A DNA stretch of 64,000 bases from Chloroflexales bacterium ZM16-3 (GTDB lineage: Bacteria > Chloroflexota > Chloroflexia > Chloroflexales > Chloroflexaceae), in the NCBI GenBank assembly GCA_004138175.2, contig RYFE02000009.1, forward strand, positions 62,001 to 126,000, written 5' to 3'. Below, in pieces: positions 1,321 to 38,911 of the stretch (position 1 is its first letter; each line of letters opens with the position of its first letter). Under the pieces are notes generated by a model. The model made no database searches, was not told where the DNA came from, and was given only the letters and a program-made list of their open reading frames with translations. Both the position numbers and the translations under genes were made by a program.

Positions 1321-1920
1321 ATGTCCAATGAAGAGCAGCGCCTTATCGAGTCCGCGCAGCGTGGGGAGGTTGAGTCCTTCAACCAGCTGGTGCGCCTCTA
1401 CGAGTCGCGCGTCTATAACCTGTGCTACCGGATGCTGGGCGACCCCGACGCGGCCGCCGATGTCGCGCAGGACACCTTTATCTCGGCATACCGTAACCTG
1501 GGCCGCTTTCGCGGCGGCATGTTTCGCTCCTGGCTGCTGCGGATCGCCACCAACGCCTGCTACGATGTCCTGCGCGTGCGCAAGCGCCGCCCCTCCACCT
1601 CGCTCCAGGCCCTCGGCGTCGCCGACGATGATGGCATCGGCTTCGACCTTCCCGATCTTGGCGAGCGCCCCGACGATGCCGCCCTGCGCCACGAGCTGGC
1701 CGCTGCCATCCAGCGCGGTTTGGCCGACCTGCCCGAGGATCAGCGCGTGGTGATCATCTTGAGCGATATCCAGGGGATGGCCTATGAGGAGATCGCCGCC
1801 GTGACAGGCGCGAATTTGGGCACAGTCAAGTCGCGCCTAAGCCGCGGCCGTGCCCGGCTGCGCGACATCCTGCGGGCGGGGGAACTACTACCGTCAAAAT
1901 TTCGTCATGATGGCGGATAG
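1321..1920 (+). CDS. ECF-type RNA polymerase sigma factor
   Basis: A 199-residue sigma-70 family factor with only regions 2 and 4. Region 2 spans about residues 14-66, with the typical pattern FNQLVRLYESRVYNLCYRML and the DVAQDTF core-binding helix. Region 4 spans about 134-185, with LPEDQRVVIIL, an EIA helix-turn-helix and GTVKSRLSRGRARLR. The low-complexity linker between the regions is typical of extracytoplasmic-function sigmas. The following gene looks like its membrane anti-sigma partner, 71 nt downstream, so the pair probably forms an operon reacting to an envelope signal. The ribosome-binding site is weak (AGAGGGC, 11 nt before ATG). The signal and regulon cannot be read from the sequence. 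Confidence 0.92.
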   Translation: MSNEEQRLIESAQRGEVESFNQLVRLYESRVYNLCYRMLGDPDAAADVAQDTFISAYRNLGRFRGGMFRSWLLRIATNACYDVLRVRKRRPSTSLQALGVADDDGIGFDLPDLGERPDDAALRHELAAAIQRGLADLPEDQRVVIILSDIQGMAYEEIAAVTGANLGTVKSRLSRGRARLRDILRAGELLPSKFRHDGG

Positions 1921-1991
1921 TAGTTCAAATGTTTAAATTAGCCATCGTGGACGACCGGGCCCTATGGCGCAGCGACCACCCCCAATAGACG

Positions 1992-2822
1992 ATGAACACC
2001 TCTCAGCCACAACTGAATAGCATGCCAGACAGCGACATCGAGCTGCTGTCGGCCTATATAGATGATCAGCTCACGGAACCCGAACGGGCTGAGCTTGAGC
2101 GCCGCCTTGGCACCGAGCCGCGCCTGCGGGCTGAGCTTGAGGATCTGCGGGCCACGGCGGCTGTGCTGCGTGACCTTGAGCCGCGGCCGCTGCCGCGCTC
2201 CTTCACGCTAGACCCGGCGATTGCTCCTCGACGGCGGGGATTCCTGTCGTTTGGCTGGGCCATGCAGCTCGGCGGTGGGCTCGCTGGCTTTGCCCTGGTG
2301 CTCCTCGCCAGCCTACAGATGTTCATCGGCGTGGGTGGCGGTATGGCGGCATCTGCCCCCGCGCCCGCCGCGATGATGGCGGCCGCGACAGAGGCACCCG
2401 CCGCGCCGCTGCCACAGGCCGCCGAGATGGCTCCTGCGTCCACCGCTGCCCCTATGGTCGCCGCCGCCGCCGCGCCCGAGAGCGCCCAGGATGCTACCGC
2501 TGCACGCAACGCGCCCGACTCGATGGCGAGCGACACCGGCGCGGAGGGCGAGTCATCAGGCGCAGGCGCGCCAGCGCTCACGGAGGTGCCGACTGCCGCT
2601 GCCGCAATGGCGCTGCCCGCTACCGAGGCACCCACTCCGGCGATCTCTGCCAGCGGCCTGTCGTCGCCGGGCACCGAGAGCCTAGAGCAGCCCGCGTCGC
2701 CGCCCGCCGCCAAGTCGCCCCCGCAGCTGTCAGCACCACCTGCTGGCATGATCCTCGCTCTGGGAGTTGTGCTCATCGCCCTATCCCTCGGCTCATTCCT
2801 CTACGGCAGGGCGCGCAGGTAA
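1992..2822 (+). CDS. Putative membrane-anchored anti-sigma factor
   Basis: A 276-residue protein directly after the ECF sigma gene. The cytoplasmic N-terminus (about 14-60) has the anti-sigma pattern D-I-E-LLSAYIDDQLTEPER followed by an ERRL...LRAELEDL helix. The His/Cys zinc ligands of ZAS anti-sigmas are absent. A hydrophobic segment at about 88-113 would span the membrane. Then comes about 130 residues rich in Ala, Pro, Ser and Glu, and a second hydrophobic segment near 252-271 followed by GRARR. The two-helix layout would put the low-complexity region outside the cell. The assignment rests on position and the N-terminal pattern; the long Ala/Pro region has no recognisable fold. Confidence 0.72.
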   Translation: MNTSQPQLNSMPDSDIELLSAYIDDQLTEPERAELERRLGTEPRLRAELEDLRATAAVLRDLEPRPLPRSFTLDPAIAPRRRGFLSFGWAMQLGGGLAGFALVLLASLQMFIGVGGGMAASAPAPAAMMAAATEAPAAPLPQAAEMAPASTAAPMVAAAAAPESAQDATAARNAPDSMASDTGAEGESSGAGAPALTEVPTAAAAMALPATEAPTPAISASGLSSPGTESLEQPASPPAAKSPPQLSAPPAGMILALGVVLIALSLGSFLYGRARR

Positions 2823-36881: not shown

Positions 36882-36910
36882 TTGACAGTCGTGATCACGC
36901 CCGCTATCAT
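36882..36910 (+). promoter_or_regulatory. Promoter of the esterase gene
   Basis: TTGACA (36882-36887), a 17-bp spacer and TATCAT (36905-36910), 65 nt before the ATG. Confidence 0.75.
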
Positions 36911-36974
36911 ACACCCCATCCAGACGCCCGTAAACCTAATCTACTGCCCCTTGTCCCCTTGTCGAAGGAGTCCT

Positions 36975-37691
36975 ATGCACCGCGCCTATCATCGCTGGGA
37001 CAGCCCGGCCCTCGGCCGTCCCATGGAGCTGCTGATCTTCGGCCACGCCGGTGCCCCCTGCCTGGTCTTCCCCACGTCCCACGGCCGATTCCACGAGTAC
37101 GAGGATCGCGGCATGGTCGCGGCGCTGGCCCACCGGATCGAGCAGGGCTGGCTCCAGCTGATCTGCGTCGACAGCGTCTTCGGCGAGAGCTGGTATAACG
37201 AGGGCGGCCCGTCGGACGCCCGCATCTTCCGCGAGGAGCAGTACGAGCACTACCTGATCACCGAGGTCGTGCCGCTTATCCGCTCGATCAACCCGAACCC
37301 GTTCTTGATGGCCACCGGCTGCTCATTCGGTGCCACCGAGGCTGTGATCCTAGCTCTGCGCCACCCCGGCCTCATCCGCCGCGTGATCGCCCTCAGCGGC
37401 CTCTACGATATCCGCCGCTTCTTCAGCCACTACACCCAGGGCGTCTACTTCCACAACCCAGTGGACTTTGTGCCAAATATAGCCGACCAGTGGGCGACCG
37501 ACCGGCTCAACGAGACGGATTTCATCCTCGTCACCGGCCGTGATGACCCATCCGCCTGGTCGAACGACCTGCTCTCGCGCCAGCTCTGGGAGCGGGGCGT
37601 CGGCAACGCGCTGCGCCTCTGGGACGGCTGGTGCCACGACTGGCCCTACTGGCAGCAGATGATCAACGCCTACATCGAGGGCCATGATTAA
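36975..37691 (+). CDS. Alpha/beta-hydrolase, esterase-D-like
   Basis: A 238-residue putative esterase. The core reads PMELLIFGHAGAPCLVFPTSHGRFHEYEDRGM, and the nucleophile elbow is GCSFGATEAVILALRHP, with Ser in G-x-S-x-G near residue 117. A late acidic residue (FILVTGRDDPSAW) and His (DGWCHDWPYW, near 224) complete a likely catalytic triad. This is the D-family esterase pattern also seen in uncharacterised bacterial homologues. AAGGAG lies 6 nt before ATG 36975. It is transcribed alone and ends at a hairpin shared with the convergent peroxiredoxin gene. The substrate is unknown. Confidence 0.85.
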   Translation: MHRAYHRWDSPALGRPMELLIFGHAGAPCLVFPTSHGRFHEYEDRGMVAALAHRIEQGWLQLICVDSVFGESWYNEGGPSDARIFREEQYEHYLITEVVPLIRSINPNPFLMATGCSFGATEAVILALRHPGLIRRVIALSGLYDIRRFFSHYTQGVYFHNPVDFVPNIADQWATDRLNETDFILVTGRDDPSAWSNDLLSRQLWERGVGNALRLWDGWCHDWPYWQQMINAYIEGHD

Positions 37692-37740
37692 AAAGAGAGG
37701 GTCCCAGGGAGAGCTTAGCTCTCCCTGAGACCCTCTCTTT
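37692..37740. terminator. 23-bp hairpin, GC-TTA-GC loop, between convergent genes
   Basis: Arms 37692-37714 and 37718-37740 pair with one mismatch around TTA. It starts right after the esterase stop and ends just before the stop of the minus-strand peroxiredoxin gene. TTTATTTAT follows on the plus strand and a run of A's lies on the other side, so it could work in both directions. Confidence 0.75.
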
Positions 37741-37742
37741 AT

Positions 37743-38318
37743 TTATAGGCTGTCGAGCTCCCTCAGCAGCAGCTCGGGCGCTGGCGGCCTAAAAACTGGC
37801 GAGAACGGCGCGGCCCAGCTGTAGCGGATCACCCCGGCGGCATCAATCACAAAGCAGCCTGGCAGCGGTACGCCAAAGCCCGATCCCATCCCGTAGCGGT
37901 AGAAGACCTCCCAGCCCGCATCGCTCAGGATGGGGAAGGGCGCGTGCAGCACCTCTGCCACATAGCTCGTCATCTCTAGGTCTGTGCTGCTCACCACAAT
38001 CACGTGGGAGCCCCGCCGCTCGAATTCACTGTATGCTTCCCGCAAACCATCCAGGTGCGGCGCGCAGTTCGGTCAGAAGAAGCGGTCGCTCACAATTCGG
38101 GTCAGATCCAGCACCACCGGCCGCCCGCGCAGCTCGCTCAGGCGCAGGGTGCGCCCGTACTCGATCTTCCCCTCGCCGGTCTCATCGTAGAAGAAGCGTG
38201 CGAAGGGCAGCGTAAAGTCGGGCGCCTCATCGCCGGGCTGCGGCACATCCGCCGGCCCGCGCGGGCGGACAAACTCATTCCGCCACTTGCTCGTCATCGG
38301 AAGAAAAGGGCGTGCCAT
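37743..38318 (-). CDS. Peroxiredoxin-like (AhpC/TSA) protein with in-frame UGA: candidate selenoprotein
   Basis: Reads as a single frame of 191 codons interrupted only by TGA at codon 82 (38073-38075). Before it: an AhpC/TSA N-terminus (PQPGDEAPDFTLPFARFFYD, LSELRGRPVVLDLTR). At the site: R-F-F-UGA-P-N-C, where relatives have F-C-P-x-C. After it: an intact domain (HLDGLREAYSEFERRG, VIVVSSTDLEM, FPILSDAGWEVFYRYG, GVPLPGCFVIDAAG). The UGA thus replaces the redox-active Cys and would give a U-x-x-C motif. A stem-loop at 38040-38060 suits a bacterial SECIS. GAGGAG lies 6 nt before the ATG, at the end of the upstream SRPBCC gene, so they are coupled. The alternative is a pseudogene by a Cys-to-stop change; no other decay is visible. 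Confidence 0.75.
38040..38060 (-). promoter_or_regulatory. Candidate bacterial SECIS stem-loop
   Basis: On the minus strand, 12 nt after the UGA, CCGCACC pairs with GG-UU-UGCGG (two bulged U on the 3' side) around the apical loop UGGAU. The loop begins 19 nt after the UGA and has G at its second position, which agrees with the general bacterial SECIS description (stem close to the UGA, G among the first loop bases). Folding was done by eye. Confidence 0.55.
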
Positions 38319-38321
38319 ATC

Positions 38322-38771
38322 TTACTCCTCACATACCTGCTGAAGCCGTCGCATCTGAACGTCAGCATCCCAGCCCATCAGCGGGCCGACCGTCGCTGGC
38401 CAGATCAGCGAGAGGCCGGGCACCTTCAGGCGGTACTCGATCCGGTTCTGGATCAGCGTCTCGCCGGAGCCACCGTGGGGTCGCCAGTGCCAGGCGTCGA
38501 ATCCCTCCCAGAAGCCGTCAAAGGCCCACAGGATCAGCCCCTCGCGCCGATCAAACACACTATAGTCTGCCTCCAGGAGGCTGCCGAGGCCAGGTATGCT
38601 GAGCCTCCAGCGTGCGCCCCGGTCGAATCGCCAGCCATCGAGCGGCGTGAAGCGCACCGCCGGCGATGTCCAGCGCTCCATATGCGACTGGTCGGTCATC
38701 ACATGGCCGACCCGCACCATATCCGCTCGGACAACGACAAAATCCTCTTGCTTATGTGGAAATTCGCTCAT
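38322..38771 (-). CDS. SRPBCC (START-like) family protein
   Basis: A 149-residue protein with the SRPBCC/polyketide-cyclase pattern: ADMVRVGHVMTDQSHMERWTSP at the start of the fold, ARWRLSIPGLGSLLEADYSV and LIQNRIEYRLKVPGLSLIWP as core strands, and a C-terminal helix. Such proteins bind hydrophobic ligands in a cavity; no catalytic residues can be named. It is chosen to start at ATG 38771 (MSEFPHKQED); the frame is open to 38900, where no family match exists. Its stop is three bases from the start of the UGA-containing peroxiredoxin gene, so both are in one operon. Confidence 0.78.
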   Translation of the reverse strand: MSEFPHKQEDFVVVRADMVRVGHVMTDQSHMERWTSPAVRFTPLDGWRFDRGARWRLSIPGLGSLLEADYSVFDRREGLILWAFDGFWEGFDAWHWRPHGGSGETLIQNRIEYRLKVPGLSLIWPATVGPLMGWDADVQMRRLQQVCEE

Positions 38772-38893
38772 AGCATTCAGTATAGATCTTTTCACACTCT
38801 TTGTCCATACTTTGCACAGAATCGGGCGCAACAGATTTTCCTGCAAAGGCAGCCATGACGCGCGGTTAAAACCGCGCCGTCCAGACGCCCAAT

Positions 38894-38911
38894 CTGTCAT
38901 CTTTCTGTCAT
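38894..38911 (+). promoter_or_regulatory. Pho-box-like direct repeat upstream of the Tad operon
   Basis: CTGTCAT-CTTT-CTGTCAT, two exact heptamers with 11-bp period. This is the layout and sequence of the PhoB/PhoP-type Pho box known from Escherichia coli. It lies about 30 bp upstream of the likely -35 region, further than usual for activation. The rest of 38772-39002 contains a small stem (CGCGGTT-AA-AACCGCG) and the promoter. Confidence 0.5.

Follow-up and report, generated by a model that had tools for sequence, protein, structure and literature searches.

A predicted Chloroflexaceae selenoprotein with a peroxiredoxin fold and a UxxC active site read across an in-frame UGA

Peroxiredoxin (Prx)-like thiol:disulfide oxidoreductase selenoproteins with a UxxC or UxxU motif (PF00578; representative WP_010940744.1) have been listed (PMC13188914, Table 1), and the UxxC form is a recognised, high-confidence predicted kind (PMC13188914; also PMC1794560, PMC9312934), and an earlier note on the DNA analysed here had rightly stated that such proteins exist. 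The published bSECIS model places a hairpin 16–37 nt from the UGA, with an upper stem of 4–16 bp, a loop of 3–9 nt having a G in its first two positions, and an MFE of −7.5 or lower (PMC13188914). A 2006 survey counted three selenoproteins of three families in Chloroflexi; its main text does not name them, and a Chloroflexus orthologue of the present gene may already be among them. In the Chloroflexus and Chloroflexota selenoprotein literature, covered chiefly by titles and abstracts, no paper naming the gene was found.

The window, a stretch of 64,000 nucleotides from Chloroflexales bacterium ZM16-3, carries the gene on its minus strand (Table 1). The earlier note had described a frame of 191 codons with a single TGA at codon 82 in the context R-F-F-UGA-P-N-C, AhpC/TSA sequence on both sides of it and a ribosome-binding site beside an SRPBCC gene, and all of this agreed with coordinates and sequence. 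In detail, the frame runs from ATG to TAA (37745–37743) with the TGA as its only in-frame stop, and the read-through product matched AhpC-TSA (PF00578) in Pfam over residues 28–166, that is, across the TGA, at 4.1e-21 (75.6 bits, cut-off 26), as well as the Redoxin domain at 8.1e-15. The GAGGAG lies 6 nt before the ATG and falls within the 3' end of the SRPBCC ORF; the stop of that ORF (38324–38322) is separated from the start of the gene by a 3-nt gap. The SRPBCC ORF more likely starts at the ATG at 38771, and the two ORFs are probably co-transcribed.

Table 1. Positions of the features discussed, numbered from the first letter of the window.
Feature	Position	Strand	Basis
Predicted selenoprotein gene, Prx-like UxxC protein, 191 codons	37743–38318	−	frame, Pfam, orthologues
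TGA at codon 82; predicted Sec-82, which opens the U-P-N-C motif	38073–38075	−	TGA/TGC in orthologues
Cys-85 codon, partner of Sec-82	38064–38066	−	invariant; HMM alignments to 5ovq and AhpE
bSECIS-like hairpin CCGCACC-UGGAU-GG-UU-UGCGG	38040–38060	−	folding, conservation, covariation, bSECIS model
Apical loop UGGAU, G at loop position 2	38049–38053	−	sequence; model of PMC13188914
Shine-Dalgarno-like GAGGAG, overlapping the SRPBCC ORF end	38325–38330	−	sequence
Upstream SRPBCC (Polyketide_cyc2) ORF	38322–38900	−	ORF list, Pfam 9.8e-7
Inverted repeat with flanking A/T runs, directly after the gene	37690–37740		sequence only
Convergent esterase ORF	36882–37691	+	sequence

We conclude that the gene is predicted to encode a full-length selenoprotein of 191 residues with UGA-82 read as selenocysteine (Sec), at a probability of about 0.95, which applies to this reading and not to the chemistry of the protein. 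SelB, acting on the hairpin just downstream of UGA-82, would deliver Sec-tRNA-Sec to the ribosome, where the codon would be decoded as Sec, a decoding event that we infer from parts recognised in the sequence and by comparison. The earlier note had proposed the same reading, which is now supported by the Sec machinery, by the TGA and Cys orthologues and by the fit of the hairpin to the bSECIS model.

The active site probably points to a chemistry other than that of a classical peroxiredoxin. An AlphaFold2 model (pLDDT 88) gave AhpE and Bcp as the best fold matches (Z about 22.8, rmsd 1.7), and in profile alignments Sec-82 aligned with the TxxC threonine of peroxiredoxins and Cys-85 with their peroxidatic Cys, while the Prx Arg preceding the G-T-F strand corresponded in HMM alignments to Pro-153, within an invariant P-L-P. 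Thus, of the classical signature PxxxTxxC plus Arg, Cys-85 is present, but Sec-82 stands in place of the Thr and Pro-153 in place of the Arg. The UGA had earlier been placed at the active-site Cys; it does lie in a redox UxxC motif, but at its N-terminal position, where classical peroxiredoxins have Thr, and the assignment of U82 to the peroxidatic position was ruled out by the HMM alignments. The combination of UxxC with PLP is that seen in thiol-disulfide oxidoreductases of the ResA/TlpA type. Because this site is combined with replacement of the Prx Thr and Arg, a thiol-disulfide mechanism would be likelier than a classical peroxidase; on balance, the sequence favours thiol/disulfide-type chemistry over that of a classical H2O2 peroxidase. 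The protein would then most likely cycle between a selenol/thiol and a Sec82–Cys85 selenenylsulfide form, its predicted role being that of a thiol:disulfide oxidoreductase or else of a peroxide/persulfide reductase that depends on thiols, and the name Prx-fold thiol:disulfide oxidoreductase suits it better than peroxiredoxin. The rival proposal, which concerns chemistry only, is that the Sec protein is a Prx-type peroxidase with Cys-85 peroxidatic and Sec-82 resolving. It draws on the nearest folds being the AhpE and Bcp peroxiredoxins and on the alignment of Cys-85 with the peroxidatic Cys, but it must accommodate Sec-82 and Pro-153 in place of the Prx Thr and Arg, as well as a UxxC-plus-PLP site like that of ResA, whose model also matches (NCBIfam NF002854, 7.4e-9), and is a tentative second choice.

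Orthologues were searched in 100 relatives and the window's own genome, the family set comprising 41 Chloroflexaceae genomes. A TGA orthologue, 64–93% identical, was found in 27 of these 41, from Oscillochloris, Chloroflexus, Ca. Viridilinea, Ca. Chloroploca and other Chloroflexaceae. In a phylum-wide search of 400 genomes, matches at E ≤ 1e-20 were confined to Chloroflexaceae, and a plasmid search gave nothing beyond distant Prx/ResA matches. The TGA sits at the same aligned codon in all 26 full-length TGA orthologues, none of which has another stop; the only other codon there is TGC, in two copies, so residue 82 is Sec or Cys and never Trp. Comparing homologues at this codon, as the earlier note had suggested, revealed no accumulating damage. 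Cys85 is invariant, the motif being U82-P-N/H-C85. Low dN/dS values on both sides of the TGA (against G004, a member of the window's genus, dN 0.045 and dS 0.18 before it, 0.03 and 0.38 after it) show that both gene halves are under strong purifying selection. Separately, in another genome of the same order (G050, L045:1501–1926), a different Prx-like gene carries a TGA in RGSW-UGA-PDC and is a probable further UxxC selenoprotein.

The neighbours mraZ, MFS, esterase and Tad genes are common to the window and the orthologous loci. The SRPBCC ORF lies upstream in 13 of 21 orthologous loci and adjoins the gene in most genera other than Chloroflexus. Judged from its sequence, the inverted repeat behind the gene is a probable intrinsic terminator separating it from the convergent esterase ORF. 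In several Chloroflexus genomes, a rhodanese–metallo-beta-lactamase gene adjoins the Sec gene divergently, as at locus L098 (2564–3745, minus strand; 1613–2206, minus strand), and in some it is followed by a DsrE-like gene; these rhodanese and DsrE-like neighbours give a weak hint of sulfane-sulfur metabolism.

The hairpin was found as the earlier note had drawn it, with arms CCGCACC (38060–38054) and GG-UU-UGCGG (38048–38040), a UGGAU loop beginning 19 nt after the UGA, and an MFE of −7.7 kcal/mol for the 21-mer. Its 5-nt loop, 7 bp with a 2-nt bulge, distance and folding energy all lie within the published bSECIS ranges; this fit is a comparison with the constraints of PMC13188914 and not a bSECISearch run. 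Among synonymous recodings of the window peptide, 1.9% folded equally well (1.9–12% over the three sequences tested), so that, taken one sequence at a time, the hairpin stands out only a little and is not extreme. It is on the strength of its conservation in the 26 full-length orthologues that the hairpin is judged, from these alignments, to be beyond chance. Synonymous variation fell to 0.20–0.41 of expectation in 8-codon windows within codons 79–94, against a gene median of 0.88; CCG-87 and CTG-89 were invariant, and TTG-92 and CGG-93 each varied once. In the covariation test, 96% of stem cells were paired across orthologues, above all 500 shuffles. Consistently, codons 88 and 91 covaried (CAC-GGT 8, CAG-GCT 12, CAG-GCG 1 and CAA-GCG 6; p 5e-7 before allowing for kinship), switching His/Gln and Gly/Ala in step while the stem was kept. 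The stem shows compensatory change, but since the codon-88/91 types track the phylogeny, the number of independent events behind it is small. A weaker stem (−5.7) was found at L086 (= L022, G006). A bulge-free 7-bp hairpin was also tried for the whole set and rejected as the worse fit (85% vs. 96% of cells paired), although the Chloroflexus sequences are predicted to fold with a bulge-free stem, CCGCAAC/GUUGCGG.

The selA, selB and selD genes and the selC tRNA, which the earlier note had named as the genes to look for, are all present in the window's genome (genus Oscillochloris, 6.27 Mb, rated 100% complete) above curated cut-offs. SelA scored 552 bits, SelB 315 bits on the gene's own contig about 42 kb away, SelD 369 bits (C85:19051–19980) and the tRNA-Sec, with anticodon TCA (UCA), 66.9 bits against an Rfam gathering threshold of 47. 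The SelD gene has its own in-frame TGA in the motif ACAGUGSK, a known UxxK selenoprotein position (PMC13188914, Table 1), so that this genome is predicted to have one or more Sec genes besides the Prx-like one. Over the 41 family genomes, the TGA gene was present in 27 of the 35 with SelA evidence and in none of the 6 without (p 0.0007, kinship not corrected; p 0.004 if G033, with a SelA fragment only, is counted as without SelA). Some components went undetected in a few drafts with the TGA gene. SelB was not found in Ca. Viridilinea mediisalina (G016, L023; draft, 99% complete), which has the TGA gene, SelA, SelD and tRNA-Sec, and either an assembly gap or a divergent SelB may account for this. 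In the drafts G007 and G033 no tRNA-Sec above the cut-off and no complete SelA, SelB or tRNA-Sec were detected, respectively, and G025 (draft, 99% complete) has SelA, SelB and tRNA-Sec with no SelD above the cut-off.

The Cys versions provide a natural control. Two TGC copies were identified. One is in G025, as the second gene of a tandem pair (locus L037 on C29, minus strand, with Sec-type and Cys-type copies at 1501–2064 and 2143–2712), and in G038 the TGC gene is the sole copy. In the tree the two group as a single clade (100/100) within Chloroflexus, so Cys is the derived state. Both are single continuous ORFs, and both have lost the hairpin (MFE −1.4 and −0.7 kcal/mol), with changed synonymous codons in the stem at positions otherwise fixed. 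The Chloroflexus genome G038 is a single contig of 4,684,931 bases, in which no SelA, no SelB beyond EF-Tu-like matches and no SelD above the cut-off were detected. It keeps an intact-looking tRNA-Sec (L066, C1:4496440–4496532; 70.9 bits, anticodon TCA), which is an orphan with SelA, SelB and SelD undetected in that genome.

These copies bear on whether the gene could instead be split, the UGA ending an 81-aa protein and translation restarting downstream, for example at the TTG at 38045, with the hairpin aiding reinitiation. A TTG-started ORF of 100 aa (38045–37743) does exist, but the break would cut a single Prx domain within its active site, the Cys-type copies form a continuous ORF, the hairpin is gone where TGA became TGC, and family genomes without SelA evidence do not have the TGA gene, which makes a split gene very improbable. 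We regard near-cognate read-through, with the UGA read as Trp or Cys instead of Sec, as equally improbable. Read-through can depend on RNA structure too, but nothing found here speaks for it. The site holds only Sec or Cys among the orthologues and never Trp, the Sec machinery co-occurs with the gene, and the genome in which the Cys version is the sole copy is the one where selA, selB and selD were not detected. Finally, a pseudogene or sequencing error, in which the TGA would be a real nonsense mutation and the Prx gene in decay, would agree with the two fragments (ORFs of 81 and 100 aa) that standard annotation would give and with the additional frameshift of one relative (G021), but the recurrence of the TGA in independent assemblies of many genera, the 64–93% identity, which excludes a single recent copy, and the lack of any other stop in the 26 TGA versions together with low dN/dS on both sides effectively exclude it.

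A somewhat favoured history is that of a Chloroflexaceae-specific selenoprotein subfamily with a Prx fold and a TlpA-like UxxC/PLP site. Within Chloroflexus, a tandem duplication would have given rise to a Cys copy, which would have persisted beyond the Sec gene once selA, selB and selD were lost, leaving the orphan tRNA-Sec. A Sec gene, a tandem Sec and Cys pair, and a Cys-only genome without Sec machinery make up a natural series that bears on what Sec buys over Cys and on how the Sec trait disappears. The selenoprotein lies above no current NCBIfam cut-off in a family that includes Chloroflexus and Oscillochloris, and standard annotation is expected to split or discard its gene.

Compared with known systems, the protein shares with PrxU (NF040737, TxxU) the Prx fold and a Sec at the active site, but in PrxU the Sec replaces the peroxidatic Cys, whereas here it replaces the Thr three residues earlier, and the protein scored 25.7 bits against the PrxU cut-off of 270. 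The best NCBIfam model was that of the SelL-related redox protein (SelL_rel_redox, NF040769), which all 21 group members matched weakly (best 5e-13); the window protein reached 33.3 bits against a cut-off of 120 and has one Sec, not UxxU. The closest fold is the 1-Cys Prx AhpE of Mycobacterium tuberculosis (1xvw, 4x1u; Z 22.8, rmsd 1.7 over 150 residues), which differs from the window protein in carrying TGIC in place of UPNC and, ahead of the GTF strand, Arg in place of Pro-153. With the ResA/TlpA thiol-disulfide oxidoreductases it shares the PLP before the strand, and the first residue of the ResA CxxC corresponds to Sec-82; its score with the ResA model was 35.7 bits against a cut-off of 170, and its fold is nearer to peroxiredoxins. 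The Prx-like UxxC selenoproteins (PMC13188914) are alike in the AhpC-TSA domain, the UxxC motif, a Sec-utilising host and a downstream bSECIS; the Chloroflexaceae group is likened to them by domain and motif, lies below every NCBIfam cut-off and, in the search of 400 genomes across the phylum, had close orthologues in no other family. The Chloroflexaceae group is not a new kind of system but is new within this known kind of UxxC Prx-like selenoproteins.
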